Shown piece by piece: positions 1 through 27,185 of a DNA stretch of 64,000 bases. Source of the DNA: Bryoerythrophyllum caledonicum. Its lineage: Eukaryota; Streptophyta; Bryopsida; Pottiales; Pottiaceae. The stretch's first letter is position 1. Each line of letters opens with the position of its first letter. The notes under the pieces are model-generated. The model saw only the letters and a list, made by a program, of their open reading frames with translations, did no database searches and had not been told where the DNA came from. A program made the translations under genes and the position numbers. The stretch lies in assembly GCA_963971425.1 (NCBI GenBank), contig OZ020515.1:36594371-36658370 (forward strand), given 5' to 3'.

Positions 1-806
1 AGTCGAAAACTATGGGTGTCACTTATCAAAACCAAGGACAAAGTTATTGACAAATTCAAAAAATTTAAAAACCGCAAAGAAAATCACACGGGGAAGAAGA
101 TTATTACACTCCGTACGGACAACGACACCGAATATATGTCTTTAGCCTTCCAACAACTCCTCATTGATTCCGGTATTCACCATGAACGCACACAATATTA
201 CACTCCTCAAAGCAATGGTGTTTCGGAGCGCAAAAATTGATCTATAGTCGAGATGGCTCGATGCCTTTGCTTTCAACACAACATTCCATCTTACTTATGG
301 TCCGAGGCCATCAAGACCGCCACTTATATTATTAATCGAGTCCCTACTCGTATTTTAACCAACACGACACCATAAGAAGTTTTTTCTGGTATGAAACCTG
401 ATTTATCCCAGCTTCGTGTATTCGGCACACGAGTCTTTGTCTACATTCCAAAAGAAAAAAGGTACAAAATGTCTCCCAAAGCCTCTAGTTGTATTCTTCT
501 TGGTTTAGATGAATCCACTAAAGGATATAGATATTATTGTCCATACACACATCGCATTATCATTTCCAGGGATATTAAGATCGATGAGGGAAACTCATGT
601 CACACCCCACCCGACATTCCTTCCCAACCTGAAGCTAGATAAGGTCGTTTCAGACTTGTGATCCCTCAAATGGACCCTAAACAAGATAACATTCCCTCCA
701 TTGATGGTAATCAACATCAAGACGTGACATATTTCCCCCTGCCACCTCCACCCTCACCACACACGACTACAACGGAGTCTGCACTTCACACCAATACACC
801 GTGGCA
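1..806 (+). pseudogene. Ty1/copia polyprotein remnant, integrase part (left of LINE-A)
   Basis: This is the integrase C-terminal half and linker of a copia Pol polyprotein, entering from the left edge. The integrase core is recognisable by RTDNDTEY near the start and by YTPQSNGVSERKN just before an in-frame TGA at 238. Homology continues through that stop (VEMARCL, LPSYLW-like, INRVPTR) to a second stop near 373. The GKKP-like domain follows with LRVFGTRVFVYIP and GYRYYCP. The coding frame then runs into a proline/threonine-rich linker and is cut at 795-806 by the target duplication of LINE-A. It resumes at 13901. The two stops make it a dead copy. Copia assignment is secure from family motifs; gag and protease lie outside the window. 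Confidence 0.88.
795..806. repeat. Target-site duplication of LINE-A, 3' side
   Basis: TACACCGTGGCA occurs here and again at 13889-13900, on the two sides of LINE-A. The match is 12/12, and the copia reading frame continues from one copy to the other. This marks a target-primed insertion and defines the element ends. Confidence 0.93.
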
Positions 807-1031
807 GAAGAAGAAGAACGCCGGTCTCCGAAGGGGGCCGGCGTGGATAAAGTGTCCGTTCATTCCACCACTAAGTCCATGCCCACCGGGCATGGGTTAG
901 TAGTATGGAACTACTTCCCCCTTTCGAGGGTGGACACTATGTATCAGTAACAAGTGACCAATACAAAGGGACCAAGGTTTCAAAAAGTCTCTAAGAAAGG
1001 AGGGCGTGTATGGTGAGGCACACGTGCATGT
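807..1031 (-). other. LINE-A 3'UTR with terminal hairpin and (TTC)4 tail
   Basis: The sense 3' end carries a stem-loop near 819-842 (arms around GCCGGCC.. and ..GACCGGC, loop UUC) directly followed by four TTC triplets and then the target duplication. The same hairpin and tail end LINE-B (around 17095) and LINE-C (around 38343-38381), so this is probably the recognition element for the element's own reverse transcriptase. That role is inferred from position and conservation. Confidence 0.8.
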
Positions 1032-4000
1032 CTATGGAGGGGGGTTCGATGCGTCAGGAAGGGGTTGGTTGTTTTCAAGTTTTCGTTTATGGAGGAGTAT
1101 AGACATAGCATGTTGAATTGCAATAGTGTTAATATTTGAGAAGGTGGTCATGATAGAAGTGATGGGGATTTTAAATGTTTCTTCAAGGATTGTCATTGAG
1201 GGAATGAAGGTGGTGGCTCTGGCACCCGCAGTGATGACAATGAGGGGGTCTACTTTCCATCCTAGTGCTTGAATATCGTCAAGTAATGGTTGGTATTTAT
1301 TTGTTTTATTAGTAATAGTGTCCGGAGAGAATCTATCATTACAATATGTGAATTCAATAAACTGAATAGTGAGGCTGGGGTCTATGTGGTTTGGTGGAGG
1401 GTCTTTGTATGAAAGTCCTCTAACACATAGTAGGTCTGGTTTGAATCTTGCATTACAATGGCATCTTTGAGTGTAACATGTGCATGGTAATAGCCAAGGG
1501 GGGACCGTATTTTCTAGTGGGTTGTCATTAAAGGTTCCGGCATTCATGAGAATGAAGCTGCGGGATTTAGTTGATGATATAAGTAGTTTACGGATAGCCC
1601 ATACGGCTTTGTTATGTCTTTTGACAATAAGTGAGTGTATATGGGGGTTTCGGCACTTTAATAAGATATGTAGCCATGTGTCCGGGTCTGTGGTGTTGCA
1701 AATTGGACATGTTATTGTAGGGAATCTTTCTATTCCAAAGAAGAGTTGTTTGCGGGCATTACCCATGTATTGTCCGGTGCGGAATTTGATAAGGCATGTG
1801 ATTTGTGGGTCCGTAATGATTGGGTTTTTCCAAAAATTGTTGGACAATATGTTGTGAATGTTTGGGTTGCCGGTCCATTTTTCAATATTGGGAAAATTTT
1901 CTGTGAGTTTTTCTAGGTTGTTTATAAGATCATGTTTTTTGAGATATTTGTCTAAGAATCGTATGGGGCCTTTGTCGGGAGTTTCGCCCATAGAGGGCCA
2001 TTCATATCTATGATAGTAATATGGGGTGGCATGGGCGTGTTCGTATGGATGTTCGGCGTCCTTGTGGGTTTTTTCTCTTCCCTCCTTTGCTAGTTTGTCG
2101 GCTTCTTCATTGCCGGCGATGTTAGCATGAGCTCGGACTTTGTGGAGTGTAGTAATTTGTGTGCGACTTTGGAGCATTCCAATCATAGATGTAAGGATAG
2201 TTTTGTCCGGGTGACTGTTGTGTAAAGTGGGGTGTTTAATGTGTGTATTTAGAAGATGTAATACATTTACGCAGTCTGTAAAGATGTGAGCCGGTTCGTT
2301 TTGGTATTGAGTGGTGATTATCTTAAGGGTTTTGTGTATAGCCATCATTTCGGCTCTGAGAATGTTTTGGAGTCCATGTAGTCGTTTGCCTAATTTTATT
2401 TGTTTGGTTAAGTTGTATATCCCATAACCGGCTTTTTCACGGTGCCAATGTCCCGGGCTTACTTCAGTTGGTTCTTTAAAAGAGCCGTCAGTATAGTAGC
2501 TAAAGTTGGGGTCAAATTTAGGATCGGTGTTTGTTTGGTAGTTGGGGAGTGGGAGGCTTAGTTCGGTTATTGGTAGTGCGGGGATGTTTGTGTGGGGGGT
2601 TTTAGACCATTTTTTGTTACGGTTTACACGGATTGAGGTAGGTGAGGGAGGGGCAATTGCGGTGTATACCTTGTTAATGTTTAGATTTTTTGCTATCAAG
2701 GTGAGATGAGTGAGGTTTTCAAGAGTACCTATCTCCCGAGTTTGGTGATGTATACATAGGATACGTAGGGTTGCTGGTTCAAGGCGGGGAGTTTGTATTT
2801 GTGGTGGTATAGTAGGTTCAATGTAAGTCATAGAGTCCGCTTCAAATAGTACTATGATATGAGAGTCCGGGAATGGGCCTGAGTATGGGTTAGAGTTGTG
2901 GTACCAATTAGTGTCGGGAGTGATAATAATGGTGATGTTGTGGTTAGGATCATTGTTTGCCGCTAGACATGCCCAATGTATTGCTCGTTGTGTTTCTTCT
3001 TCGTTGTGAGGGTGTGCGAGACCTATTCCGCTCCATCTATAATCAAAAGCTTTACCAAGAGAACCAAAAATCTTATCACGTTCGAATGGAGAGTAGAATT
3101 TTGAGATTTTTGTGGAGCATGTAACGGGGGATGAGAAGTATGAATGTGTGATATTTAGAGATGTAATAATGTAGTCTAGGATTGGATCGGGTAATGTGTA
3201 TTGTGCATTTTTAAGGGGGTCTTTTTTGGATATACGGTATTTATATCTTTGGTATAACCAAACAATTTCGGTTTCAAATGTTTGGGGTATTGGTTCAATG
3301 TTGATGGTGGCTTGTAGTGCGTTGTGATATTGGTTCCACAGCCATTGTAATCTAGCGAGTGGTATGGTTATTAGATGCCTTCCATTATCTTCGTATATGT
3401 GGGCATTATCTTGTTGTATTTTAATTGAATTAGTTTGTGCCAGGATGTCAGTTTCGGGATTACATTCGATTGTAGAGATGTTAAGGAGGGGGATAATAAG
3501 AGGTGGCGCGACGAATCTTCTATCTCGCGGTTGTGCTTGGGGATGGTGTATTTGTATGATATTCAGGTAATAACTATTTTGAGTTTTGAGGTAGTATTGT
3601 CTGAGGATTTCTGTGTTATATAGGGAAGCATTTGGGTTGTGCCAAGGGAAAAGATTTCTTTGTGGGAGCCATTTGGTGTAGGTGGTGTTATTTTGAGACC
3701 AATGGCATAGGTATAAGGTGTGTTGTTTGCTTATTTTGTTGGAGTCAATGTATTTTCTATGTTTGTGCATGGTTATGTTGTTTATTGGGTATATGGAAGG
3801 ATTTTTTAAAATGTGTGGTGGAGGGGCATATGGTCGTGAGTGTGGCGGGTTTGGAGGGATTGATGGGAGATTGGTATTGGGATGGGTGTCATTGTGACCA
3901 ATGATGTATTGGTCTTTGAGTGTGTAAGGTGGGGCGTGAGTATTGCAGGGGTTCAGACAATCAGGGAGACATGGAGTTTGACAAAATAATTGTTTAGCAA

Positions 4001-7000
4001 TTTTTAACGCACTTTTTATTAATTTGTGAGGGGTACCGTGGAATGTTCTGTAGTTCTTGTCGTCCATGAGTTGTGTTCCATTAGGTAGTGTAATTTGTTT
4101 TAGATCGGTAATGTTTGTTGCTAAAAGTTTTTGGAGGAGTTTGGCGGATAGTTGTCGGTCAAGTCTGGGGAGATTGTGTATTTCGTTTGCCCAATTTTGT
4201 TCAAGCGGTGCGGGGCCTAGTAAGAAGTCTTCTAGTGTGCTTTTTAGGAATGTTTGACCCACTGTTTTGAGTAGAAAGAGTGTGCGGGTAATAGGAGACC
4301 GAAGACAATCAGTTTTCTTTAGTCTTTGGAGGTATTGTGCTCCTCCATAAATGGCAAGGATGTGTCGGAGGAGTCCACTGTAAATTTGGCCTAGTCGTCC
4401 CTCGTCGTTAAGTGCATTTTGGAGTTGTTCTCCAATGCAGCGTAAATAGGCATTTTTGAGGGAAAAAGCTTCTAATCCAAATAGTTCGTGGGGGAGTTGT
4501 GTTATGACATTGGACATGCATTTAGGGAGTCCACATACTTTCTTTTGTATGGCCATGATTTTTTTGTCAAGTTTGTTTATGGCGGGCATGGAATAAGGAA
4601 CTGCATAAAAACTATATGAGATACCCGGTCGTATGACGGTATCAATCATTTTTATTTTTTGTTGTAATGTGGCCGGGCATAGTGTGAGTTCATTGCATTG
4701 TTTAATAAGCTTCGTAGTAGTAACGTGGGTTTGAATTTTCCATTTTAACGATGGGACTAGGTTTATTCCAAGGTATATGTAAGGTTGGTTCTGGTTGAGT
4801 ACCGGAATTGGTTGGTTACGATAGTGGATATTGGTAGCTTGAATAAAGGCTTTGAAGGCGGTCGGATTTATTTTGGATTTATTTGGGCATCCGGTTACGG
4901 CACATTTTTGGACCCCAAGTTCCATCCCTGTCCATAAACAAAATTTGTCTATTTTGTCTAGTTGGGTTTGGAGTGGTTTAAGACGCCCGGAGATGGCCGC
5001 TAGGTCGTCGGCATATGCGGCCGAGTTTATGGTGACTTTAGAAGTACCAAATGTGTAGCCATTATTGCCTCTTTGAAGCCATCTCAATAGAGGTTCTAGA
5101 AAAATAATAAAGAGGTACGGGCTCAATGTGTCGCCTTGTATGGTACCACGTTGGATGGGGATAGGGCGCGTTTTACCAAAGAATTCTCCGACGTATGTAG
5201 TGGTAGATTGAGAGTATATATTGCCAACTAGTGTGACTGCGTCTTCCGGGTACCCAAGATCACTCATAACGGCTAGTAATCGAGGATGGTCAATGGAACC
5301 AAATGCGTTTTTGAAGTCAATATAGAGTATGTAGATGTCTTTATTTGTGAATTTTGCATCCTCAAGAGCGGCAATGAGGGTTTGAAGTTGCCGTGTGGTA
5401 CTTCTCTCGGCTCTAAATCCTTCTTGGCTTTCATGTAATATTTGGTGTATTTCTCCGTAGGCCGATAGTATTGATGTAAGTGTACTAGTATATAATTTGT
5501 AAATGGTGTTAGCTAGGGCAATAGGTCGGTGGTTAGGTAGCACGGCTGGGTTGCCTTTTTTGTATAATAAGATTGTTAGACTTGTTTTCCAAGATGCGGG
5601 AATGGATTTTTGTTTGTAACAATGAAGGAAAAATAATGATAGGAGATCGTGGAATCTTGGGGGCATATTTTTTAGAATTGAGTTGGGTATATGGTCCGGG
5701 CCAGGGGCTTTATTGGTTCCAAGATTTTTGAGACACATGTTGTATGTGTCTCTGTTATAGTATGTGTGGAGAGGTGTAGTTGGTTCTCCTCTTTTATCAA
5801 TAGTAAATCCGTCTAAATCATGCCACGGGTATTTTCTAACTCCGCATGTGCATGTTGGTGTATGTTGTGGTTGAAAGTAACATGTGGGGACGGTTGGTCT
5901 ATTGTTTATGGATTGCTGAAGATGTATTTCGTTTGCGATGTCATCTGGGCTGGTTAATATGTTATTGTTTTGGTCTAAAATGCAGTCCAGTGGCAGGTTT
6001 GTGTTGTTTTTAAAGACTTTTCTATTAATCTTTTTTGGGCTTGTTTCGTATAATTGACGATATTTAGAAATAGCTTTTTTGACACATTCTCTTGCATATT
6101 TTGTAGTGATTTTCTGAGCTTCTTTGTTGGCGGTTTTTGCAATAATTGCGATGTCTTTTAGCCAGTCTTCGTGAGGGGTGTTGGGTAGTGGTACTTGTGG
6201 GATTTGGGGATGGCGGAGGTGCTGTAGTTCTGAGAGTATGGGGTGGTTTTGCCAATTTTGGTTGGTTTTAGCAATATAAATTGTTTTGCGAATAGTGTGG
6301 TATGTGGCAAGATGTTGTTTCCACTTTTTAGCTAGTTTTCTTGGGAGATACCCACCTTGTTTCAAGGTTCTCGGTGTTAGTTGTGGAATTGGGGGTGCTT
6401 GACAAGTCTTTTCTAGTGTAGTAGAAATCTCGTTAATGAGTTTGTCAAGAATCGTGCAAGCTTCTTGCCATTGAATATGTGTGAGGTGTTGGTGGTTAGA
6501 AAGAGTATCTGTAAGGGAGTCTATTATTAGTGAGTTTTTTTCGAAGAATATTGTATTAAAGTTGTCAAGGTTTACTTTTGGGATGGGGTTTAATATTTTA
6601 ATATCATTTGAGTTGATGGTTGTAGGAGGTCTACTTATTAGGGTGTTGTGAGGTATATTGAGTTGGATTGGGAAGTGGTCCGAGTTTAAGTTGATTGTGG
6701 TATTGGTAGTAGATGTATATCGCGTATGGTTAGGTGTTTTAATGTAGAATCCATCGATTAGGCTAGTGTGTGTGTAATTAAGTCCACCTTGGCGAGAGTA
6801 TTGTGTATCGGTTGGAATTAAATATAATTCTAGGTTATTCGTATAATTTTGCCATTGATAGTCTCTATCAAGTGGGGGGGTAAAAACCTCTCCGTTTTGC
6901 CGTCCAATAAGGGCGATGTCTCGATTAAAGTCTCCGCAGAGTATTATTGTATGGTTAGTGTGTGTATTTATTTGTGAGGTGATAGAGTTTTGGATTTCCG

Positions 7001-8072
7001 GAATAAGCCTAGAGTCCTCTATATGTGAGGGCATATATAGATGAAGAATGAGCCATGGTTGGAGGGGTCGGTTAGAAATTTCAATAATTTGCAAATATGG
7101 TGATATATTAGCCGGGGTAGGGATTTTAGTAATATTTCCGGGAAAGGCATATGTTTGGTGTATGAGCATGAGTAGACCTCCTCTTGCCGGTGTATATGGC
7201 CTTCGTTGTTGGATGCATCGTGTGAGAGAATGAGTGTTATTAAATATTAGTTTATAATCGGGGAATGCTTTTTGGATGTATTTTGTGGATTTAGTAGCTG
7301 TTAGTTTGGTTTCTTGTATGGCAATTATGGCGGGTGGTGTGTTGGTGTGGGTGGTTAGATTATGGATGCTTGGTAAAGCAGTGTTTAACGTTGAGGCGTT
7401 CCATGTAGTTATATATGTGTTGCTATTGTCCAGATTGTCGTGGTTACAGGGTGGAGGGGGAATGTGGGCGGGTGTCGGGGCGGGGTGTGTGTAGGCGTGG
7501 ATTGGTTCGAAGCATCTAAGAGATTCGAGGATTAGACTGTGTGTAAGGTAGGGAAATTTCAGTTGTAGTACATCGGGGGAAGGGGGTGGGGTTTGGCTAT
7601 GAATGAAGTTGTATAGGTCATTGTGTAGAGAGGTTTTGTGTTCAAAAAGGTGTTGGTTTTCTTCTAGGAATTTAGTGTATGGGTGGGGTGTATCTATATG
7701 TCTTTCAGGGGGATTATGTAGAGAGGATAGGGTGTTTAGTAATATATCTGTCCAGTATGTTGGGTTTGTGTTGGTTGGGCGTTGGTTGGTGATATTATTG
7801 CATTCGTCTATTGAAGGGTGGAGGGTTGTGATTATGGCAAATAGGATATGTGCGGATGGGTGGTTGTTGTTTTTTTTTTGGTTAATGTAGCGGGAAATGT
7901 TGGGGTAGAGGGTGGAATAGTTTTGGTGGAGTATGTGATTGTTTTTTAGGAGTGGTGCAAATGAAGATGCTAGTTGTTGATATTCGGGGTGGAGTTTTAT
8001 AGTATTCGGAATGAAATATGTTTTTGCTAATCTTTTGTGTGTTTTTGGATGATTTTGAAATACATCCGGCAT
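1032..8072 (-). CDS. LINE-A ORF2: APE endonuclease, reverse transcriptase, RNase H, RLE endonuclease
   Basis: This 2346-residue intact frame should carry all catalytic steps of retrotransposition. The APE nuclease spans about 220-475, with TWN 223-225, QET 253-255, GDFN 380-383, SLIDGF from 437 and SDHF 464-467. The reverse transcriptase spans about 788-1060, with the motif A aspartate D919, RGTIQGDTLSP at 976-986 and YADD at 1020-1023. A chromodomain-like stretch lies at about 1440-1497. RNase H spans about 1857-2000 (D1862, E1908, D1933, H1982, D1992). A CCHC finger (C2122, C2125, H2135, C2140) is followed by KRHN at 2151. The restriction-like endonuclease has PD 2212-2213, E2240 and K2256/K2259-Y2260. 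The start is the first ATG, immediately after a 2A motif. A C-terminal RLE together with an N-terminal APE is the Dualen-type arrangement. Confidence 0.9.
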   Translation of the reverse strand: MPDVFQNHPKTHKRLAKTYFIPNTIKLHPEYQQLASSFAPLLKNNHILHQNYSTLYPNISRYINQKKNNNHPSAHILFAIITTLHPSIDECNNITNQRPTNTNPTYWTDILLNTLSSLHNPPERHIDTPHPYTKFLEENQHLFEHKTSLHNDLYNFIHSQTPPPSPDVLQLKFPYLTHSLILESLRCFEPIHAYTHPAPTPAHIPPPPCNHDNLDNSNTYITTWNASTLNTALPSIHNLTTHTNTPPAIIAIQETKLTATKSTKYIQKAFPDYKLIFNNTHSLTRCIQQRRPYTPARGGLLMLIHQTYAFPGNITKIPTPANISPYLQIIEISNRPLQPWLILHLYMPSHIEDSRLIPEIQNSITSQINTHTNHTIILCGDFNRDIALIGRQNGEVFTPPLDRDYQWQNYTNNLELYLIPTDTQYSRQGGLNYTHTSLIDGFYIKTPNHTRYTSTTNTTINLNSDHFPIQLNIPHNTLISRPPTTINSNDIKILNPIPKVNLDNFNTIFFEKNSLIIDSLTDTLSNHQHLTHIQWQEACTILDKLINEISTTLEKTCQAPPIPQLTPRTLKQGGYLPRKLAKKWKQHLATYHTIRKTIYIAKTNQNWQNHPILSELQHLRHPQIPQVPLPNTPHEDWLKDIAIIAKTANKEAQKITTKYARECVKKAISKYRQLYETSPKKINRKVFKNNTNLPLDCILDQNNNILTSPDDIANEIHLQQSINNRPTVPTCYFQPQHTPTCTCGVRKYPWHDLDGFTIDKRGEPTTPLHTYYNRDTYNMCLKNLGTNKAPGPDHIPNSILKNMPPRFHDLLSLFFLHCYKQKSIPASWKTSLTILLYKKGNPAVLPNHRPIALANTIYKLYTSTLTSILSAYGEIHQILHESQEGFRAERSTTRQLQTLIAALEDAKFTNKDIYILYIDFKNAFGSIDHPRLLAVMSDLGYPEDAVTLVGNIYSQSTTTYVGEFFGKTRPIPIQRGTIQGDTLSPYLFIIFLEPLLRWLQRGNNGYTFGTSKVTINSAAYADDLAAISGRLKPLQTQLDKIDKFCLWTGMELGVQKCAVTGCPNKSKINPTAFKAFIQATNIHYRNQPIPVLNQNQPYIYLGINLVPSLKWKIQTHVTTTKLIKQCNELTLCPATLQQKIKMIDTVIRPGISYSFYAVPYSMPAINKLDKKIMAIQKKVCGLPKCMSNVITQLPHELFGLEAFSLKNAYLRCIGEQLQNALNDEGRLGQIYSGLLRHILAIYGGAQYLQRLKKTDCLRSPITRTLFLLKTVGQTFLKSTLEDFLLGPAPLEQNWANEIHNLPRLDRQLSAKLLQKLLATNITDLKQITLPNGTQLMDDKNYRTFHGTPHKLIKSALKIAKQLFCQTPCLPDCLNPCNTHAPPYTLKDQYIIGHNDTHPNTNLPSIPPNPPHSRPYAPPPHILKNPSIYPINNITMHKHRKYIDSNKISKQHTLYLCHWSQNNTTYTKWLPQRNLFPWHNPNASLYNTEILRQYYLKTQNSYYLNIIQIHHPQAQPRDRRFVAPPLIIPLLNISTIECNPETDILAQTNSIKIQQDNAHIYEDNGRHLITIPLARLQWLWNQYHNALQATINIEPIPQTFETEIVWLYQRYKYRISKKDPLKNAQYTLPDPILDYIITSLNITHSYFSSPVTCSTKISKFYSPFERDKIFGSLGKAFDYRWSGIGLAHPHNEEETQRAIHWACLAANNDPNHNITIIITPDTNWYHNSNPYSGPFPDSHIIVLFEADSMTYIEPTIPPQIQTPRLEPATLRILCIHHQTREIGTLENLTHLTLIAKNLNINKVYTAIAPPSPTSIRVNRNKKWSKTPHTNIPALPITELSLPLPNYQTNTDPKFDPNFSYYTDGSFKEPTEVSPGHWHREKAGYGIYNLTKQIKLGKRLHGLQNILRAEMMAIHKTLKIITTQYQNEPAHIFTDCVNVLHLLNTHIKHPTLHNSHPDKTILTSMIGMLQSRTQITTLHKVRAHANIAGNEEADKLAKEGREKTHKDAEHPYEHAHATPYYYHRYEWPSMGETPDKGPIRFLDKYLKKHDLINNLEKLTENFPNIEKWTGNPNIHNILSNNFWKNPIITDPQITCLIKFRTGQYMGNARKQLFFGIERFPTITCPICNTTDPDTWLHILLKCRNPHIHSLIVKRHNKAVWAIRKLLISSTKSRSFILMNAGTFNDNPLENTVPPWLLPCTCYTQRCHCNARFKPDLLCVRGLSYKDPPPNHIDPSLTIQFIEFTYCNDRFSPDTITNKTNKYQPLLDDIQALGWKVDPLIVITAGARATTFIPSMTILEETFKIPITSIMTTFSNINTIAIQHAMSILLHKRKLENNQPLPDASNPPP

Positions 8073-8120
8073 TGGGCCTGGGTTAGTTTCTATGTCTCCG
8101 CAAAGTATAATAAGTAGCTT
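8073..8120 (-). other. 2A-like ribosome-skipping motif before LINE-A ORF2
   Basis: In the ORF2 frame, the 16 codons just upstream of the ATG read KLLIILCGDIETNPGP. This contains the full D-(V/I)-E-x-N-P-G-P 2A core with a leucine-rich lead-in, as in picornaviral 2A and in 2A of trypanosome and sea-urchin non-LTR elements. 2A makes the ribosome skip the Gly-Pro bond, so ORF2 protein would begin Pro-Met. The frame stays open upstream through the CAA tract to a TAA near 8606, but I find no ATG in it. Confidence 0.85.
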
Positions 8121-8163
8121 GCAATGAATGATGCCTATGGTTATTAGTGGGAGGGGTGTGGAG

Positions 8164-8553
<390 letters not shown>

Positions 8554-8695
8554 ATATATATTGTAGTATATAAATATACTATGGAAGTTTTTTGTTTTAT
8601 TTTATTTATGTTTCTATATTTATTTTTGTACTTAGTATATTTTTTAGTATATATATATACTATATTGTTTTTGGTTGTAGCGTTCTTTGACGCTA
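8554..8695 (-). other. LINE-A inter-ORF spacer with AT-rich inverted repeats
   Basis: This short AT-rich spacer follows the tandem stop codons TAA-TAG of ORF1. It contains a perfect palindrome TAGTATATATATATACTA near 8647-8664 and a second near-palindrome of the form TAGTATA..TATACTA near 8565-8582. The arms share the same TAGTATA sequence, so either hairpin could form in the RNA. No gene is seen. Confidence 0.6.
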
Positions 8696-10282
8696 TTAGT
8701 TTGACGTGTCCATCTTGCTTTCAATAGCCCTTTGCTCTCGTTCTAATGCTTGTGTCTCAGCCGCCATGATGGTTGCAATGAGCTGTGATCTGAGAGTCGA
8801 CATTTCCCCTCTAAGAGATTTGATTGTGTTTGTTTGCACCATGTCCGCGTATTGTTTTGCTTCTTCCACGATCTCTCCTTTCATATTCTTCATTTCTCTT
8901 CGAAGTTGTTGTAGGGTGACACCATGTTCCTTGTTAGGGCCATTCTCCATGGCAATTACAGCGTTCGCAACAGCGGAGTTTACATCCGTGAATCCCAATC
9001 TTGATAATTCATCCGCATTCGGTTTGTTACTCCCGTCTAAGCTTTTAGGGTGGGGGGTAAACATGACATATTTACCATGGATTTTTTTGCTTTGTTTAAC
9101 GAATTTCTTATATACTGCTGCGTTTAAACATTCAATGTTGCAAGTCCCTACATGCCGTCCATATTCGAGTTTGAAGAATGTATCAACCACATTCTCCTCC
9201 CCGAGGATGGATTTTATTCCCTCTACCAATTCCTTTTCATTTTTCGTTTTGTTGAGGTTTTTTGCAATAAGAATTAGACAATTCTTTTTTGCAATCTCAT
9301 CTTCATCCATTTTCCGCGTTGCAAAGATTGGTACAAAGATCTCATTGTCAAATGAGATTTTGTAATCTTTTACTTTGGCAGCTTGTACTGGAGAAGGGGT
9401 TTTTACCCATGCAAACTCGGAAAAACCCTTTTTTTCCACTCCTGTCACCTCAAAGTCGTACCCTCTTGCAAAACTATCTCTCACTATTTCCTCATGCAAG
9501 TCATGTGGTTATTTATTAACAAGATTTGTACCCGATATTTTAACGGATAATAGATGCGAGAAGGCTAAGGCGTCGTATGACTTGCACACTTTTCCTTTGT
9601 GTGGGATTCCTTCACTCAAGATAAGGATGAAAGGCCTTATCCCTTGTAATAATCCCTTTGCATCTATTTTTGGATTTTTTAGGTGTAATTTAAACACTCC
9701 ATTCCAATTTTCGGTTTGATAATAGCAAAAGATGGCTATTGGCTCACCGATGCGGGTCCCAATAGGGATTTCCATGTTTTTGAGCCTTAACTTTATCATC
9801 TCTAAAATAACATCCTTACTCCATATTTGATCACCAAGTTCAAAATGAATTGAGACTTGGTAATCTAGGGCATATCCTTCTTCATCTACCTCAACTTCAC
9901 TTGGAAGTTGGGTGAGATTGAAGTGGTTGCCCTCCTTTCCATCAACCCTACTTGAGGGCCACTCCTCTTGGGGAGTATATGAAAAGGCAGGCAATGCTTC
10001 AAAACTTTCCGCCGCCTCTTTCGAACTTAGACCACTTTTGACCAATTCTTCTAGGGAGAGAATGGGGATTTTTGGATTACCTTTTTTCTTTGCAAGTGTA
10101 TTCATGGTATGAAAACCTAACCAATATTCAGTGTAAGGCAAACTTGTTGCCTTCACCTTCTTTTGGATGGCACTTGCAATAGCTAGGGTGTTTTGGGTAC
10201 CATTTGTAACACATGGGTTTTGTTCCACTACTTCAACAAACAATCGCTTGGACGGGGTGGCAGCAGCTTGAAGTTGAGACAT
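8696..10282 (-). pseudogene. LINE-A ORF1: RRM-like, coiled-coil nucleic-acid-binding protein (one nonsense codon)
   Basis: This is the ORF1 protein of the element, about 528 codons from the ATG at 10282 to the TAA at 8696-8698. A single in-frame TAA at 9509-9511 (about codon 258) breaks it, and the same frame continues as PHDLHEEIVRDSF. The first half contains YWLGFHTMNTLAKK and FNLTQLP, both matched in LINE-B. The second half has a beta-alpha-beta-beta-alpha-beta pattern (CLILIAKNL .. NVVDTFF .. GKYVMFTPH) resembling the RRM of LINE ORF1 proteins, then a charged, probably coiled-coil tail. RNA binding is inferred. The open frame extends far upstream of this ATG, so the true start is uncertain; this one fits LINE-B, whose ATG is at the same relative place. 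Confidence 0.72.
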
Positions 10283-13200
10283 ACTGTACCTAGCAAGAAT
10301 TAAAGTGTTACTAGAGAAGGTATAGAGTGCTACTTTTGATTTACCCCTTATCACCTTGCTTTTAACTTCTTCCCTCAACATACATTGAGGGCTTGGTGAA
10401 GTTAAAGAGATCAAGAAGGAGTATAAAGTGCCCATACAATTGATATACCACCAAAATCCATTCAAACAACGAACATGCCCCCTTTTATCTAGCAACTTTA
10501 AGTATGAAGAGTTGATGTTGTGGCATATAGAGATTTGTACACATACCCACGCAAGAGAGGTGCCATAACAAAGGTCACCTCTCCAAGTAACTAATTTTAA
10601 TATTAAAATATGGATACACTTCCAAAGGTTTGCATAATAAACCCGGAGATAACAAGAAATGACAATTTGTGGAGAGAGTAAGAAGAGGCTATGACCTGAT
10701 TGAGGGGTACCCACTTGGGTGTTGCTGTGATGACTCTTGTTCCAGTGACGCCACTTTTTCGAATTAGTAAACGAGGGTTTAGTGTCCTTCAATCGGCTCC
10801 TTCTCTTGTGCACTGCTTGATCAATCCCTTGAATGGCACTGGAATTGTCCGTTGGACCAGTCTGACTCCTTGGGCCTGATGCTCTGTCGCCCTTCCTTCT
10901 TCTCTGGTTCGAGCTAGGGTTTGTTCCTGAAGTTCCGCCGTTTTCTTTTTGACCCTTGCTACGCTCGCCCTTCGTTCTGCGCCCTCCTTCCTTGATCGTG
11001 TCTCCTTTGTTGGACTTGCTTCGCCCGCCCTCGCTGGTCGTGTTTTTGCTGGACTTGCTTTGTCCGCCCTTCGTTAGCTGCACTTGCTTCTCCTGACCTC
11101 GCTGGGCTTGCTTTGCCCGCCTTCGCTTCACCCGCCCTGCGATCTTCTTCCCCTGAACTGCCTCGCACGTCGTGTCTCCCGGCTTTTCTACTTCTTTGGC
11201 AGCGACGTTGCCTGCCTTGCTTCTGGAGCTCGCGTCTTTCTCTGCTATGATCTTCCAACTCTGCGGACTTCTACGGCTGTCTCGTGATCTGGGGTGTGGG
11301 AGGGTTCTCCAAGTCTGCGGTCTTCTGTTGACGACTTGTGAGCTGCGGCGTGGGTGGCCAGCGCCGTTTTTCTTCGCAGTTGGAGACGGCCTTTCTGATG
11401 GGGGTTTCGTCCTGCGGGGCTTCTCTCGATCCACCCTCCAAGGTCGTGCAATTCTTGCTGAGTGGTTTCCTCTGTTTCGGTTGACCTGCAGTCTTCGTCT
11501 CGTCTTAACTTTTGTTAGTTGTTCTGCGAAATTACCAGACCTAATTGGTTCGGATATGTTATACAGGAACAATACGACTTGAGGTGCGTCCTTACACAAG
11601 CGACATTCTTCTAGTGCATACTTAGACAAGACCCAGACAATAAAAATTTGAAAGGAGTGGGTTAGGGGTGCTTCACTGTTGAAAGGTTTCTGCGATGGTG
11701 ACGCAGTCAGTATGTTGTTGGCGAGATGGAGTCTCTGCTGTTTGGATGTCCGCACCTCCTTCTCCACGGATCCCTGCTGTGAGCTTGGAGTAGCGTTCTC
11801 CTGCCGGACTCCTGGTTTCGAGTACAGTAATGCGTCCGACCTCTGATCTTCACGGTTCGCGTCTGACCTAACAGCGTTCTGCGGAGCTCCTAGCGGTGTG
11901 GGCGGCAGTACTCTCTCCCTCAAAGCATCCTTCTGGTAAGCTCCCTTCTCTTGGTTTGTGCAGATAGCACGCTTCCATATAGCAGAGAGTAGGTGTTCTC
12001 GCAATAGGCAGAAGTGAGAGGATTTGGTAGTGGGGAGGGGGTGTGATATATACCTTGTGTTTTGTGGATTTTCGATGGATGTCCTTGCGTGTAATGAACG
12101 TCTTCGTTTTTGGATTTGTGGCCGTTTAGGGTTGTCCTCTTCGCATTGTCGCTTGGCTGTAGATCTATGGCTGTGTTGGCTGGGATGGTCGTTTAGGTCT
12201 TGATCTTGCCAAAATTGGGTGTTTACTGTGCGGTTGTGACTGCTAGGGTTGCTGGGGTTGTATTGTAGTGACGGCTGGCAGTGTGGTCTTGTCACTTTCT
12301 TGTAGTTCCTGTCATTGTTCAGTGGTACTTTGCAGAAAGGAGATATGGAAGGTGACGGATTGGTGTAGGTACTTACCTGATTTCGCACATACCTTGGTTT
12401 CGAATGCCGTATTGGGGTCTTGATATCTTGCTGCTGTGGCTGTTTTTTAGTCTGTAGGTGGTGATGGAGGTGTGAGGCTTGATCTTCGAGATCTCCTAGT
12501 GTGTGTAGGGTGAGTGACAATGCCCCTTCCTCTACAGGTTGCTTGGTTGCGGTGGCTTTGTATTCTTGATGATTTGTTGGAAATTTGGTGGTGAGCGATT
12601 TGGTCTTGAAATCCTGATTGATGCTGGAAGAAAGTTGAAATGGCGTTAGTTTTGGAGGTGAGGTTAGGATATTTACCCTGGTTGAAGTGGCATTGTGTTG
12701 TTGGTGTCTTGTAGCTGATGCAGGTGCTGATGTTGTTTTTGTGTAGGGCTGCGCTTTGGATCTTCTATGTATGGCTGTCTTAACTTCGGCGCGGCGTAGG
12801 GCTGATGCAGAGCCTCGGTATTTGTGGCCGCGGAGCTGATATGTATTTGCAGCCCTGTATGTGTACCATTGGTTCACCTCTGTGTGCTGGTGGTTAGTCG
12901 ATATGTTTGCTCCTAATATATGTGAGTCTGTAAAGTGCATTCTAGCCTGGAACTTCAAAAACAGCGAAATACTGATAAATGACTTAGCTGGGTACTCAGA
13001 GTACGGTTCGTTGTGTTCAGCTCTCATGTCTTGGCCACGGGTTCGGTTGTTGCTTCTGTGTCGCGAGTCTGATGAAGGGCTGCGGTCTCGATTGTTGTAT
13101 TGTCCCGCATCTTCGTGTTCTTGGGTCTGTTTCATGTCGCTCTTTACTTCTTGCCTATTTGGATGTCCTTTCTTCAGTAACTGCAGTTGTCTTGACTTGT

Positions 13201-13459
13201 TCTTCCTGTCTTTCCTGTGTGGTATGTTCCAGGGCAAGCAACTACTATTCTCCTTCTTGCAAAGCAGGTTAATACTTGGTCCTACTCCTACAATCTTCAC
13301 CACTACATGCGAATCTAAATTACATATACACTTTTGAAAGTTTGTGAGATGTGAAGTGCCATAGGAATACTTAACTGATCTTGCAGAGAGTTGGTCGTCG
13401 TAAGGTCTTGTGTCTTGGCAACTGATTCGAGATTTGTGCAAGCAGTAGTCTGTTTTCAT
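10283..13459 (-). CDS. Long S/R/Q-rich upstream open frame of LINE-A, in frame with ORF1
   Basis: From an ATG at 13459 the frame is open for 1316 codons, straight into ORF1, until the nonsense codon at 9509. So many codons without a stop argue for coding history, although the composition (Ser, Arg, Gln, Lys, Asn, His) is low-complexity and I recognise no catalytic domain. A basic repeat-rich section lies around 10900-11200 (KGG, EGGRSKS, RSKGQ units). A hydrophobic, less protein-like stretch at about 10330-10680, just before the ORF1 ATG, could be an intron or leader. LINE-B keeps a similar S/Q/R-rich region in several broken frames. It may be an N-terminal extension of ORF1 or a separate upstream ORF. 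Confidence 0.5.
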
Positions 13460-13888
13460 GGCAAAGCTGAGGTCCTAGTTGAGGAGGGGTTTGGTGTGCT
13501 GTGTTGCTATAGTGTAGTGGCATCCTGATCTAGATCCAGTTGATAGATAGTTGATAAGGTAGGTGCAACATCTAGATCTAGATCTGAGCCAACACAGAGC
13601 CCCGCTACAGATCTGCTCTCCCAAACTAGTGCTAGTTTGTTGCACCTTTCCACAACGTTGTATCAATGATCTAAGATCTGCAATCCCTTTCCAACGTTAT
13701 ACACACTATAAGCAAACGATTCAGCGGCAAATGAAGTGCACACAGGGATTCACAATGAGCCCAGCAACCCTCATTGTTGTGTACCTTGCATTTGCGCCTA
13801 ACACCAGACAACCCCTCCTCACCAGGTTTTGCGGAGCTACTCTTCTCTCATTCTCCCCACTCCTTCTATAATTTTTCCGAGGTGTTGC
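13460..13888 (-). promoter_or_regulatory. LINE-A 5'UTR / internal promoter region
   Basis: About 430 bp separate the 5' target duplication from the first long ATG. A segment reading like CTGGTGAGGAGGGGT on the sense strand has a counterpart at the LINE-B 5' end (CTGGTGAGAGGGGTC), showing that both copies retain the 5' region. Nested GATCTAGATCTAGATC-type palindromes occur near 13568-13590 and 13530. A promoter role is inferred only from position. Confidence 0.5.
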
Positions 13889-13900
13889 TACACCGTGGCA
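13889..13900. repeat. Target-site duplication of LINE-A, 5' side
   Basis: This is the second copy of TACACCGTGGCA (see 795-806). The copia polyprotein sequence resumes immediately to the right. Confidence 0.93.
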
Positions 13901-15610: not shown

Positions 15611-15755
15611 TGTTGATAATACAAAATCCTAGGGTTATCATCATATAGTAAACACATTCATTCCGTTAGACTTAGATCTAGATCTTACATAGTGTACTTA
15701 AGCGCTTCGCCTCTCTGCTTACAATATCTTATCTATTACACAATTTATCACAAAC
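15611..15755 (+). repeat. 3' LTR of the copia element (partial or short)
   Basis: A purine-rich stretch TTAGGGAGGG is directly followed by TGTTGATAATAC, the usual polypurine tract plus TG start of a copia LTR. The sequence runs about 145 bp and reaches CACAATTTATCACA before meeting a truncated MITE, so the LTR may be short or cut. No 5' LTR lies in the window for comparison. Confidence 0.6.
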
Positions 15756-16998: not shown

Positions 16999-17368
16999 GA
17001 AGAAGAAGAAGAAGAAGAAGAAGAAGAAGAAGAAGAAGAAGAAGAAGAAGAAGAAGAAGAAGAAGAAGAAGAAGAAGAAGAAGAAGAAGAAGAAGAACGC
17101 CGGTCTCCGAAGGAGGCCGGCGTGAATAAAATGTCTGTTCGTTCCACTACTAAGACCATGCCCACTGGACAAGGAATTAGTAAGCTGGAACTACTTCCCT
17201 CTTTCGAGGGTAGACACTATGTAACAAGAAGCCAAGGAGCCACAAAACAATCAACCGACCAACAAATCACAACCCAAGCGACTAGCCAACGAACCAACCA
17301 TAAACCAAGCAAGTAGTCGAAAAACCTCAAAACAAGCAAGTCATGATAAATCAAGGTTGGGGAGGAAT
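16999..17368 (-). other. LINE-B 3'UTR, hairpin and (TTC)~32 tail
   Basis: The plus strand shows (GAA)n at 16999-17096, which is (TTC)n on the sense strand, preceded by the family hairpin (GCCGGCCTCC-TTC-GGAGACCGGC). The remaining 3'UTR resembles those of LINE-A and LINE-C around the block ACTACTTCC.CTTTCGAGGGTAGACACTATG. The tail is much longer than the four units of LINE-A, consistent with replication slippage or long templated tails. Confidence 0.85.
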
Positions 17369-20300
17369 TTAAGGGGGGTCCTGTGTATCTGGAAGGACTT
17401 GATTGTTTTCGATTTTGCATTTATGCAGGAGAATGGACATGGCATATTGAATAGCTATGGTGTTAATGTTTTTAAAGGAGGTTTTAATTGTTTCAATGGG
17501 TATCTTGAAGTTATCTTCTAGAGATTTCATAGATGGGATAAAGGTGGTGGCACGAGCGCCGGAAGTGATTACAATAAGGGGGTCAACATTCCATCCGAGG
17601 GCGATGATGTCGTCAATAAGGGGTTGGTATTTATCTATTTTATTTTGGATTGTTTCCGGGGAAAATCTATCATTGCAATATGTGAACTCAATGAATTGAA
17701 TGGAGTATTCTTGGTTGATGTTATCGGGTGGTGGGTCATTATATGGTAAACCTTTAACGCAAAGGGTGTCCGGTTTGAGCCGAGCGTTACACTGACATCT
17801 TTGGGTCATACATGAGCATGGGAGTAGCCAAGGGGGGACCGTATTTTCTTGTGGATTAATATTAAAAGTGCCGGCGTTCATTAATATGAAACATCTCGAT
17901 TTATTGTAGGATGTGATTAGTTTTCGGACTTCCCATACCGCTTTATTGTGTCTTTTAACAATTAAAGAGAAAATGTGGTGGTTTTGGCATTTGAGTAGAA
18001 CATGAAGCCATGTGTCGGGGTCCGTTGAGGGGCATATGGGACATGTTATGGATGGGAATCTTTCTGTTCCAAAGAAGAGTTGTTTGCGATCGTTTCCCAT
18101 ATACTGGCCAGTACGGAATTTGATGAGGCATGTTATTTGTGAGTCTGAGATGATGGGGTTTTTCCAAAAGTTTGTAGAGAGTTCATTGTCTCTGTCGTTA
18201 TTGTTAGTCCATTTTTCTATTTTAGGAATATTTTCTGAGATTGTATCCAGGTTGTTGTAGAGGTCTTGTTTTTTGAGATATTTGCCCAGAAATCTAATTG
18301 GGCCTTTGTCGGGGGTATCTTCTTTGGAAGGCCAATCTTCTTTTTGAAAGTAGTATGGGGTGGCATGAGCATGTTCGTGAGGGTCTTTGGCGTTTTTGTG
18401 TGTTTTTTCTCGGCCTTCTTTTGCAAGTTTGTCTGCTTGTTCGTTGCCATCAATGTTGGCATGGGCTCTGACTTTGTGAAGGGTTGTGATTTGTGTACGT
18501 TTTTGTAACATTTATACCATTGATGTTAATATGGTTTGGTCGGGGTGACTGTTGTGAAGGGTTGGGTGTGTTATTTGAGTGTTTAGTAGGTAGAGTGCAT
18601 TTATACAATCGGTGAATATATGTGCAGGTTCATTTTTGTATTTTGTTGTGATGATTTGTAGTGTTTTGTGAATGGCCATGAGTTCTGCTCTGAGGATATT
18701 TTGTAGTCCATGGAGTCTTTTGGCTAGTTTAATTTCTTTGGTAGAATTATATATGCCATATCCAGCTTTTTCTCTGCGCCAAGAGCCCGGGCTAATTTGT
18801 TCCGGTGGTTTAAAGGAGCCGTCGGTGTAATAACTGTGTGCGGGGTTAAATTTTGGTGTGGTATGAGTTGGGTAGTCTGGGAGGGGGGGAGGTATGACGG
18901 AGTAGTTTAATGTGTTGTTGATATAGTTTAATTTTGACCAATTTTTACTTTTGTTTACGGAGGTTTGTATGGGTGTTGGTTGGGCCGGTTTTGTGTATGG
19001 TCTTTGTATATCTAGATTGTCTGTTATGGAGGTAAGTTCCGCAAGTTGTTCTAGAGAGCCAATGGTTTGATTTTGATGATAGACGCATAGTATTTGTAAT
19101 GTAGATGGTTCAGTTCGGGGTTTTTTTAGCTCGGGTGGAATATTAGGTTCTACGTATGTTATTGTGTCTGCTTCGAATACTGCAATGATGTGGGAATCTG
19201 GGAATGGATTTGAATGTTGGTTGTTGTTTTGGTACCAATTGTTGTTCGGTGTGACGATGATTGTTTTTGTGTTATTTGGATCGTGTTTGGCGGCAAGTCT
19301 ATCCCAATGTATGGCTTGTTCCATGTCTTTCTCGTTGTGGGGGTGAGCTGTGCATTTCCGATCCATTTGTGGTCAAAGGCCTTGCCTAGGGATCCAAATA
19401 TTTTGTCTCTTTCGTATGGTGAGTAGAATTTATTTAGTTTGGTAGGACATGTGATCGGGGAGGAAAAGTATGAGTGCTCGATGTTAAAGGATGAGATTAG
19501 TGAGTCTAAGATGAGGGTGGGTATTGTGTATTGTGCATTTTTGAGGGGGTCAATTTTTGGTATTCAATATTTATACCTTTGGTAAAGCCATATTAGTTCG
19601 GTTTCAAAGGGTTGGGTTGTTGGTTCAATGTTTGTAGGGGTTTGGAATTTTGTATGATATTGTTTCCATAACCATTGGAGCCTGATAATGGGTATGGTGT
19701 GTAAATGTCGGCCGTTTTCTTCGTATAGATGTGCTTGATTGTTATCTATTTGAATTGTGTTTGAGGATGTAAGGATATCATTTTCAGGGTTGCATTCTGT
19801 TGTGTAGATGTTTAAGAGTGGGATAATTATGGGTGGTGTTACGGATCTTGAGTCTGGGAATTGTTCTTGGGGGTGATGGGCTAGGATGATATCCGTGTAT
19901 GTTTTGTTTTGAATTTTTTGGTAGTATTGTTTCAATTTTTCGGTGTTATGTGTGGAGGTATTGGTATCGTGTCGTGGAAAAAGGTCTCTTTGAGGGAGCC
20001 ATTTATTGTATGTATTATCATTGTGTTGCCATTGGCATAGATATTTTGTGTAGGTAATTTGTATGTTGTTTGTGTCTATGTGTTGGATATGTTTATGGTG
20101 TATGATGTTATTAATGGGATATGTGGTAGGGTTTTTGGGGATGTATGTTGGGGGGTGGAGGCGGGGGTGATATGTATGTGGAGGGTTAGCGGGATTGATT
20201 GGTGTGGGGATATTTCTTGGGTTGATGTTATTGTTGAGGTTGATGAATGAATCTTTAAGTATATGAGAGTATAAATGTATGTTACAAGGAATACGACATA

Positions 20301-23300
20301 TATTGGGGCATGTTTGGTGGCAAAATAGTTGTTTAGCAATATTTAAGGCACTTTTTAATAGTTTGGATGGGGTGAAGTGGTAGGTTTTGAAGTCCCCGTT
20401 GTTCATGATATGTGTGCCGTTGGGTAACGTAATTTGTGCTAATTCAAAAATATTTTTTGAGAGGAGTTTTTGTAGAAGCTTTTGGGAGAGTTGGGCATTG
20501 AGTGTGTTGTGGTTTAGTGTTTCTTGTCGCCATAGTGTTTCAAGTGTTGTAGGATTAATGAGGAAGTTTGGGAGTGTGCTTTTAAGGTGGACTTTGGCTA
20601 TATGTTTTAATAAGAAGAATGTCCGTGTTATTGGTGATCTTATACAGTCGCTTTTTTTAACTCTGGGTATGTTTTCGGCGCCCCCGTATTGGGCAAGGAT
20701 GTAATGAGTTAATCCATTATAAATTTTTCCAAGTCTACCTATATCGTTTAAGGCATTTTGTAGTTGTTCCCCTCTACATCGGAGATATGCGTTTTTTAGG
20801 GAGAAAGCTTCAAGACCAAATAGGATATGTGGTAGTTGTGTTATTGCGTTTGACATACATTTTGATAGTCCACATATGGTTTTTTGTATGGCGATTATTT
20901 TTTGATCAAGTTTTTTGATGGCTGGCATAGAGTATGGTACCCCATAAAAACTGTATGCCACATCTGGGCGTAGTACGGTATCAACCATTTTTATTTTTTG
21001 TTTCATGGTGGCCGGACATGTTGTTAGTTCTTTGCATTGTTTGATGAGCTTTGTGGTTGTAGTGTGGATTTGGATTTTCCATTTTAGTGAGGGAACAAGA
21101 TTTGTACCTAGGTATATGTATGGTTCGTTTTGGTGCAGTATAGGGATTGGTTGGTTGCGGTAGTTGATGTTAGAGGTTTGCATTAGGGCTTTGAAAGTGG
21201 TAGGGTTCAATTTAGATTTGTTTGGGCATCCGGTAGCGGCACATTTTGGAACTCCGACATCCATGCCAGCCTATTTACAATATCTATCAATTTTATGGAG
21301 TTGTATTTGGATTGATTTGATTTTGTTAGTTATGGTGGCTAGGTCATCTGCGTATGCGGCGGAGTTTATTGTGACTTGTGATGTGCCAAAAGTATATCCA
21401 TTATTGCCTCTTTCTAGCCATCTAAGTAGTGGTTCTAAAAATATAATAAATAGGTATGGGCTGAGGGTGTCCCCTTGTATAGTTCCTCTTTGGATGGGTA
21501 TAGGTTTTGTTTTCCCAAAGTTTTCGCCGATATAGCAAGTAGATGATTGGGAATAGATGTTTCCAACAAGTGTAGTTGCCTCTTTTGGGTAGCCAAGGTC
21601 TGACATTATTGCTAGAAGTCTAGCATGATCAATTGAGCCAAAGGCATTTTTGAAGTCCACGTATAGTATGTATATATCTTGGTTAGTAAACTTTGCGTCT
21701 TCTAATGCGGCTATTATAGTTTGTATTTGCCGTGCGGTACTTCTCTCCGCTCTAAATCCTTCTTGACTATCATGTAGGATTTTGAATTTTTCGCCGTATG
21801 AGGATAGTATGTGGGTGAGTGTACTGGTAAAAAACTTATATATTGTGTTAGCTAGTGCAATTGGTCTATGATTGGGTAGCATGGATGGATCGCCTTTTTT
21901 GTATAGTAGAATTGTTGTACTTGTTTTCCATGAATTTGGTATTTGTTTTTGTTTATAACAGTGAGAAAAGAATAGGAATAGTAGTTTATGAAATCTTGGA
22001 GGCATGTTTTTGAGTATTGAGTTTGGTATGCGGTCTGGGCCTGGGGCTTTATTATTTCCAAGATTTTGAAGGCATGTGTCGTATGTGGCTCTGTTGAGGT
22101 ATTTGTGAAGTGGAATTTCTGGTTCGCTCCGTTTGTCAAGGGTATATCCGTCCAGGTCGTGCCAAGGGTATTGGCGTATTGCACATGTGCATTCTATTGT
22201 ATGTTGTGGCTGGTAATTACATGTTGGTACTGTTGGTCTATTGGTTTTTGTTTGTTGGTTAAATATTTCATTCGCAATGTCTTCGGGGCTAGTTAGAATA
22301 TTATTATATTGATCTTTGATACAATCCATTGGTGGGGATTCAAGGTTTTTAAAGACTTTTTTGTTAATTTTTTTGGGGCTGATTTCGTATAGTTGTCTGT
22401 ATTTTGAGATGGTTTTTTTAATGTTTTCTTTTGTGTATTTTGTGATTATTTTCCGGGCTTGTATGTTGGCATTTTTTGCAATTATCGCGATATCTTTTAT
22501 CCATGTATCGTGGGGAAGGTCCGGAGGCGGCGGGGTAGGGATTTGGATGTGTTATATAGTTAGTAGTTCGTTGTGTATGGGGTGGTTACGCCATTGAGGG
22601 TTGTTTTTTACAATTCTAATGGTTTTACGTATGGTATGGTATGTGGTTAAGTGTTGTTTCCAAGTTTTAGAAAGTTTGCGGGGTAGATACCCGCCTTGTT
22701 GAGAGGTTCTGTTTGTCATTTGGGGTATTGGGTGTGCTCTACAAATTTGTTCTAGTGTATTGGAGATTTTATTGATGAGTTTGTCTAGAGAGTGGCATGC
22801 TTCTTGCCATTGTGCTTGTGTTAATTGACTATTGATTTCAAGAGTGTTTATGAGGGAGTCTATTTGTACGGTGTTTTCTTCGAAGAATTTTGTGTTGAAT
22901 TTTTCTATGTTGGTTTTTGGGATGGGTTGAGTATGCGTATAGTGTCTTTGTTTGGGATTGTAGGAATTCTACTAATTAGTGTGTTATTTGGGATGTGCAG
23001 TTGTACGGGTGAGTGGTCCGAATTGAGAATAATATCTTTGTTTGTTGTGGAGGTGTATTGTGTGTTGTTGTTTGTATTTATATAGAAACCATCTATTAGA
23101 CTCGAATCACTATAATTGTAGCCACCTTGTCTAGAGAATTGTGTATCAGTATTGATGTAAGTGAAGTTTAAGTTTTCTGTGAAGCGGCGCCATTGGTAAT
23201 CAATGTTTTGAGGGGGGGTGTGATGGTTTCCATTTTGGCGGCCAATTAGCGCTATGTCTCTATTGAAGTCTCCACATAATAGGTATGTATGATTGGGATG

Positions 23301-24400: not shown

Positions 24401-24448
24401 GGGTCCCGGGTTGGTTTCAATGTCTCCTCCTAGAAGTAGTAGAAGTTT
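24401..24448 (-). other. 2A-like motif before LINE-B ORF2
   Basis: The 16 codons before the ORF2 ATG read KLLLLLGGDIETNPGP, a canonical 2A core at exactly the same place as in LINE-A. The frame is open upstream to a TAA near 24828, about 126 codons, rich in Thr, Lys and Asn and with no ATG that I can find. Confidence 0.85.
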
Positions 24449-26315: not shown

Positions 26316-26363
26316 GGGTCCTCGGTTAGTTTCTATGTCTCCACTTAGCAGTATTAAGAGTTT
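26316..26363 (-). other. Second, degenerate 2A-like motif in LINE-B (NRGP)
   Basis: KLLILLSGDIETNRGP is followed by MPNVL, matching the 2A-ATG junction of ORF2 (MPNIL, MPDVF). The first proline of the NPGP core is replaced by arginine, a change expected to abolish skipping. The Thr/Asn-rich lead-in (THTPTNTDTYTPTNKDT) resembles the region before the intact downstream 2A. Confidence 0.8.
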
Positions 26364-26582
26364 ATAATATATGGGATTCGTGGTGTATTTTTGGTTCGTT
26401 ACGTATTTTTTATACTTTTCTGATCTTGTGTTTATGGTTTTTGTATTTTTGTTTGTGGGTGTACATGTGTCCTTATTTGTGGGAGTATATGTGTCAGTGT
26501 TTGTGGGTGTGTGTGTTTCGTTGTTTGTGGGATTTGTTGTCAATGTGCCATTGGAGTTGATCTTAATAGTGGAGTAGTTGGT

Positions 26583-27172: not shown

Positions 27173-27185
27173 TGGAGTAGTTGGT

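Follow-up and report, generated by a model that had tools for sequence, protein, structure and literature searches.

A very probable full-length Dualen-type retrotransposon with two endonucleases and a CAPAM/PCIF1-like domain in Bryoerythrophyllum caledonicum

The Dualen/RandI non-long-terminal-repeat (non-LTR) retrotransposons of green algae were reportedly described by Kojima and Fujiwara in 2005, whose paper is said to place a cysteine protease at the N-terminus of Dualen; this protease is patchy among relatives and is therefore treated here as usual rather than defining. R2 is not known to carry an apurinic/apyrimidinic endonuclease (APE) or an RNase H and is site-specific, and unspecific insertion is typical of many APE elements. 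Excerpts from the literature place Dualen only in green algae (PMC4438587; PMC8226300) and cryptophytes (PMC12747079), take its position as an argument for an origin of APE elements in which the restriction-like endonuclease was replaced (RLE; PMC4640811), report short-repeat tails, (ATT)n or (CTATTT)n, for 8/8 families of green-algal RandI (PMC3747384), and describe L1 as having no RLE (PMC10499050). Here, we analysed a window of 64,000 nucleotides from Bryoerythrophyllum caledonicum (assembly GCA_963971425.1, contig OZ020515.1, positions 36,594,371 to 36,658,370), meaning this whole stretch of DNA, and found in it what is very probably a full-length Dualen-type non-LTR retrotransposon moving by target-primed reverse transcription. 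Judged from its sequence, the element is a dual-endonuclease long interspersed nuclear element (LINE) of Dualen type, a variant with no detected protease and with a pseudo-cap-methyltransferase-like domain. Its main protein thus combines two unrelated endonucleases with a borrowed, probably inactive cap-methyltransferase domain, a rare design that could reveal how the two major LINE families are related.

As in Dualen/RandI, the APE lies upstream of the reverse transcriptase (RT), the RLE and its zinc knuckle lie downstream, an RNase H is present, the RT shares a clade with two stand-ins for Dualen (P0027 and P0033), and the window copies end in a short tandem repeat rather than in poly(A). 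Unlike Dualen/RandI, copies 1 and 2 of the window have no detected Josephin-, OTU-, or C48-type cysteine protease, and their first open reading frame (ORF1), at most 1588 codons long, contains none of the known domains. The RLE matches R2 by profile and by fold and the zinc knuckle aligns to R2, whereas the APE, the RNase H, and four insertions with no obvious common target sequence set the element apart from R2. Plant and human L1 share with it an APE upstream of the RT; it differs from them in its RLE and (TTC)n tail, and an RT clade with L1 is rejected (see below).

Two endonucleases in ORF2

ORF2 (1032..8072, minus strand, as are all its domains) spans 2346 codons with no internal stop (log10 P about −52 at this base composition). 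An earlier reading of the letters alone—the original prediction—had called this frame intact and had listed in it motifs of an APE, an RT, an RNase H, a CCHC finger with KRHN, and the PD, E, and K residues of an RLE, and all of these do reside in the one frame. The strand went unmentioned there, as did ORF1, a 2A motif, the CAPAM/PCIF1-like domain, and three further copies.

The APE (residues 221–475; 6648..7412) carries TTWN (222–225), IQETK (252–256), GDFN (380–383), and SDHF (464–467), and ORF2 searched alone matches the Pfam models PF14529 (expect value, E, 4.2e-6) and PF03372 (E 5.7e-4), the latter being found in 11/16 family members. The RT (residues 781–1190; 4503..5732), with APGPD at 789 and YADD at 1020–1023, matches PF00078 (RVT_1) over residues 841–1104 (E 1.3e-28), and R2 and L1 structures were matched to it by sequence. 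It is followed by an RNase H (residues 1858–1999; 2076..2501; PF00075, E 2.3e-12) with YTDGS at 1860, LRAEM at 1905, FTDC at 1931, and NEEAD at 1988. Further downstream, a CCHC zinc knuckle plus RHN (residues 2122–2154; 1611..1709; ligands C2122/C2125/H2135/C2140, KRHN at 2151) aligns to R2 and precedes the RLE core (about residues 2200–2334; 1071..1475), which contains KPD (2211–2213), FIEF (E2240), and NKTNKY (2255–2260). No Pfam model matches the RLE region of ORF2; by profile and by fold alike, it resembles R2.

Residue conservation was read from 16 proteins, namely the window ORF2 and 15 picked mostly for length from 39 relatives. The four zinc ligands, R2152, H2153, P2212, and D2213 are invariant (16/16), as are D1862/E1908/D1933/D1992 of the RNase H, a domain whose Pfam match recurs in 16/16 family members. 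Within the RLE, E2240 is kept in 15/16 (D in one) and K2256 in 13/16 (A in two, C in one); within the APE, G380, D381, and N383 are kept in 15/16 (one gap), H466 in 15/16, N225 in 13/16, and E254 in 12/16 (D in two, gap in two). K2259 was set aside as a possible catalytic lysine because it is Q in 13/16 proteins, which makes K2256 the better candidate. For R2Bm, an excerpt places the RLE lysine on a helix (PMC10499050), and the NKTNKY stretch is helical too in the predicted structure of the window RLE. Both endonucleases of ORF2 appear to be under constraint.

The 68 rows of the RT tree were P0002–P0056, three PDB sequences, two window copies, and 8 of the 120 listed close relatives. Both window copies group with these 8 relatives (support 100/100), and this group is nested in a 45-row Dualen-type clade (99/95) for which Pleodorina starrii P0027—carrying Josephin, APE, and RT—and Nannochloris P0033 stand in for Dualen, in a tree without Chlamydomonas Dualen or named RTE, I, CR1, or CRE rows. 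Grouping with six L1 rows was rejected (p-AU, approximately unbiased test, 1.2e-61), although this test also forces together the human row and the five plant rows, which fall apart in the tree. Grouping with RLE-only rows (two R2 and insect P0040) was likewise rejected (p-AU 0.00014), in a test that forces P0040, classed as RLE-only by motif, together with R2. Together with the profile and fold match of the RLE to R2, this placement supports the Dualen-like lineage that the original prediction had proposed.

Relatives of the element are many: a search with an RT fragment returned 333 proteins at E ≤1e-10, with identities of 53–78% among the 120 listed (ENA, JGI, and one other set). Cysteine proteases among the 16 members amount to three Josephin, two OTU, and one C48 Pfam hit, possibly overlapping, and a C..H..N protease signature occurs in 13/39 relatives, many of them cut short. 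For P0006, P0038, and P0044, a Ulp1/C48 protease is listed in place of the Josephin of other relatives; exchange of the N-terminal protease may have happened on more than one occasion. PHD fingers are present in 3/16 members and none in the window protein. A single scan for relatives in viral contigs gave 8 pattern matches, none of them confirmed as a relative.

Ends of the element and its further copies

The complete element (copy 1) occupies 807..13888 on the minus strand (13,082 bp), its limits being set by a 12-bp duplication at both ends together with a copia frame that is continuous over the joined flanks. On the minus strand, the duplication TGCCACGGTGTA opens the 3′ flank at 806 (795..806) and recurs at 13900–13889 on the 5′ side (13889..13900), 12/12 positions being identical. 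The interrupted sequence is a Ty1/copia element on the plus strand (1–794 and 13901–15101) whose polyprotein frame runs through the junction once the flanks are joined, with several stops elsewhere. In a Pfam scan of the flanks, it showed an integrase in 1–237 (E 1.5e-5, below the Pfam cut-off) and, on the same strand, RVT_2 in 13974–14417 and 14421–15101. The original prediction had run the element from 807 to 8072: position 807 is indeed the exact 3′ end, whereas 8072 is only the ORF2 ATG.

Any single duplication is modest evidence, since matches of at least 12 bases arose in 17/1000 random pairs of a flank and a 12-kb region, and since the duplication search for copy 2 spanned 21 kb. Two duplications, the copia frame, and a common ORF1 are, however, strong evidence for the element's ends. 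Copy 2 (16999..32046, minus strand; 15,048 bp) is flanked by 12-bp duplications (16987–16998 and 32047–32058) and has its ORF2 broken into several frames. Copy 3 (39797..42525, plus strand) is 5′-truncated, with 13-bp duplications at 39784–39796 and 42526–42538, and copy 4 (37932..38381, plus strand) retains the last 450 nt of an element between 10-bp duplications (37922–37931 and 38382–38391). By eye, the four duplications (10–13 bp) share no sequence except an initial TG in three, so insertion looks unspecific, as it does for many APE elements. Insertion into microsatellites was considered and rejected because the trinucleotide runs sit within elements; the target of copy 1 is the copia element and that of copy 3 a 179-bp repeat family. 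This family, a tandem unit found in both orientations, lies at 32494–33769, 36520–37410, 39622–39796, and 42525–42946, one of its copies being the target of copy 3.

Copies 1, 2, and 4 have in common a 3′ untranslated region (UTR) with predicted stem-loops and a (TTC)n end (807..1031, minus strand, in copy 1). The copy 1 UTR outperforms 200/200 shuffles in folding (z −3.67). Of the 45 pairs in a three-sequence fold, one has changed at both positions and two are each broken in one sequence. Tails of the (TTC)n type, about 4 to 34 units long, terminate 4/4 copies. Copy 3 has such a tail and lacks the 3′ UTR, a loss of the kind that a template jump would leave.

Copy 2 differs from copy 1 by ~30% in DNA and has the same domain order; even the least divergent copy in the window is 9% different. 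The element had been called recent, a view that is not clearly supported: the target duplication is perfect, yet that 9% sits less well with it. The APE and RLE motifs are kept in copy 2, and those of the RLE in copy 3 (its APE part being truncated away), as well as across the 16 proteins. Between copies 1 and 2, the ratio of nonsynonymous to synonymous change (dN/dS) is 0.085 for the RT, 0.111 for the RLE, and 0.115 for the C-terminal part of the CAPAM-like domain; with synonymous sites saturated, the proportions of differing synonymous (pS) and nonsynonymous (pN) sites are 0.78 and 0.18 for the APE and 0.75 and 0.13 for the RNase H.

CAPAM/PCIF1-like domain, ORF1, and 2A motif

Between RT and RNase H lies a CAPAM/PCIF1-like methyltransferase domain (residues 1546–1795; 2688..3437), detected as PCIF1_WW at residues 1593–1719 (E 2.9e-9). 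A methyltransferase fold and an SPL..FG..NP-type stretch align to CAPAM/PCIF1 by profile and by structure alignment, the structural match (VIA-align) being limited to chain residues 417–673, the methyltransferase part, and based on a moderate model (predicted local distance difference test 64.7, predicted template modelling score 0.61). The sequence profile carries the assignment independently of this model. Profile A3 found the domain in 27/39 relatives, or 19/31 when those used to build the profile are excluded, and some of the 12 relatives it missed are short proteins stopping near the RT.

The window domain differs from CAPAM/PCIF1 in sitting inside a retroelement protein and in having HPHN for NPPF (HPLN in another window copy). 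NPPF occurs in 0/20 relatives, as read by a regular expression that returned text for 21 and from which P0021 was dropped (wrong place), leaving 20 of the 27. Changes of N553 and F556 inactivate human PCIF1, according to an excerpt of PMC10544176. Probably, the CAPAM-like domain of ORF2 was acquired from outside and is inactive as a cap methyltransferase. We found no published report of such a domain in a LINE among the open-licence papers listed, which do not include the original Dualen paper. Its occurrence in relatives adds a puzzle: RNA-cap enzymology within a LINE. N-terminal to it, a weak chromodomain-like stretch (residues 1440–1475; 3648..3755) has a best E of 0.078 and no Pfam match; chromodomain proteins make up 10/11 of its listed matches.

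ORF1 (8696..13459, minus strand) starts at an ATG at 13459, downstream of a 5′ leader, and ends at the stop at 8698, giving 1588 codons from the first ATG when stops are counted. Its first open stretch of 1321 codons (log10 P −30 by chance) precedes a single in-frame stop at 9511–9509, and its last third shares 32–39% amino-acid identity (33% in a second comparison) with the corresponding part of copy 2, where the two halves matching ORF1 sit in different frames. The 'possibly competent' copy of the original prediction is thus not supported, for although ORF2 is open, ORF1 of the same copy is interrupted. ORF1 gave no credible Pfam domain and no PDB relative (best E 0.23, vimentin), and an RNA-recognition-motif-like ORF1 was considered and could not be supported.

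Immediately 5′ of the ORF2 ATG is a putative 2A/StopGo motif, LLIILCGDIETNPGP (8073..8117, minus strand), and GDIETNPGP, of the D(V/I)ExNPGP type, precedes ORF2 in copies 1 and 2. The same motif type is described, in excerpts, for L1Tc and sea-urchin non-LTR retrotransposons (PMC4981915), elements that Odon et al. 2013 term APE-type in their title, whereas the window element is dual-endonuclease. Upstream, an (AAC)130 run (8164..8553, minus strand; 99% perfect) would be read as poly-Asn in the frame that the 2A and ORF2 share. That frame is open from 8720 across the run and the 2A; it is −1 to ORF1 and overlaps the ORF1 end by 25 nt, and a −1 shift out of ORF1 within this overlap could possibly bring ribosomes to the 2A.

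In copy 2, a perfect in-frame (GAA)191 run (Lys) is followed by an altered 2A (NRGP) and, before ORF2, by a second 2A (NPGP). The two motifs are separated by an A-rich ~1.9 kb (24400–26600, minus strand) with a decayed ORF2-like start after NRGP. Three trinucleotide runs in the window are 99–100% perfect: 8164–8553 (~130 units), 16998–17097 (~33), and 26599–27171 (~191). The run at 16998–17097 forms the copy 2 tail; the other two lie upstream of a 2A and in its frame, so that changes in their length preserve that frame. Among the relatives, 2A-like motifs occur in 4/39 (P0004, P0010, P0017, and P0033), with two each in P0004 and P0010, just upstream of the protease signature; one in P0010 reads NPGE.

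Integration mechanism and competing explanations

Target-primed integration is well supported by the tails, truncations, and duplications. In the sequence of events that we propose, 2A would free ORF2 from the preceding translation product, and the ORF1 and ORF2 proteins would bind the element RNA. The R2-like block of linker, zinc knuckle, and RLE would then nick the first strand and pass its 3′ end to the RT, slippage on UUC triplets at the RNA end would yield the tail, and the APE would nick the second strand about 12 nt away. This division of labour, with the RLE making the first nick and the APE the second, is the least certain step, and we hold it tentatively, at slightly below an even chance. 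With its defined ends, open ORF2, and two constrained endonucleases, the element allows an in vitro test of how the two nicks are shared between the enzymes. Having lost its canonical catalytic motif, the CAPAM-like domain would serve as an RNA-binding module. A broader scenario, rather unlikely though worth stating, is that an ancestor of the Dualen-type clade captured CAPAM/PCIF1, which lost its motif and became an RNA reader, while RLE and APE split the two nicks. If true, the reader would perhaps recognise the template RNA at its 5′ end and thereby allow full-length copies to be completed, and living elements in which both endonucleases remain in use would link the two great LINE classes.

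Several observations weigh against the Dualen-type reading or limit it. The APE match of ORF2 is weak, scoring 27.1 bits for PF14529 (cut-off 27.4) and 20.2 for PF03372 (cut-off 24.5). In the RT tree, which includes nine long-branch rows and seven of odd composition, the Dualen-type clade stands at an open fork with respect to R2 and APE elements; in RLE alignment A2, the trimmed row of P0012 is without the zinc knuckle. Neither ORF2 nor the scanned pieces of ORF1 matched Josephin, OTU, or C48, and copies 1 and 2 show no protease. The in-frame stop breaks ORF1 of copy 1, which in addition has no ATG upstream of the 2A in the 2A frame, and the 25-nt overlap, checked by eye, contains no canonical slippery heptamer. 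Against copy 3, dN/dS of the CAPAM-like domain (0.251) and of the chromodomain-like stretch (0.322) exceeds that of the RLE (0.102) and RNase H (0.098). Finally, profile A3 was built from the window and 8 of the 39 relatives, so its 27 hits include those 8 by construction, and PCIF1_WW is found at E ≤0.1 in 13/16 members rather than in all.

Were the RLE vestigial, the APE alone would be used and the C-terminal domain would persist as a DNA- or RNA-binding module; target duplications with nothing in common beyond the TG, and the replacement of K2256 in 3/16 proteins, fit that view, yet it is improbable given that P2212 and D2213 are kept in 16/16 and E2240 in 15/16, and that the RLE dN/dS of 0.11 is near the RT value. 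We consider similarly unlikely an active CAPAM/PCIF1-like domain that, despite its altered motif, would methylate adenosine in RNA and so mark the element's own transcript: NPPF is absent from all 20 relatives and replaced by HPHN or HPLN in the window, and changes at N553 and F556 are what serve, in the cited excerpt, to inactivate the human enzyme (PMC10544176). That the frame is a locus-specific chimera, an APE LINE fused to an RLE LINE by nesting, might be suspected where nested insertions do occur, as in this window; this is refuted by copy 2, which has the identical domain order despite its divergence, and by distant relatives from other sources in which APE, RT, RNase H, and RLE motifs co-occur.

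Elsewhere in the window, an Rfam scan gave no match at the gathering score and a tRNA search found none. An open frame on the minus strand (52814–53899), possibly a host gene, weakly matches a SAP domain (E 8e-4, below the cut-off). A large imperfect palindrome at 15751–16594 (80% over ~840 bp), with a second partial copy at 62297–62720, is perhaps a foldback transposon.
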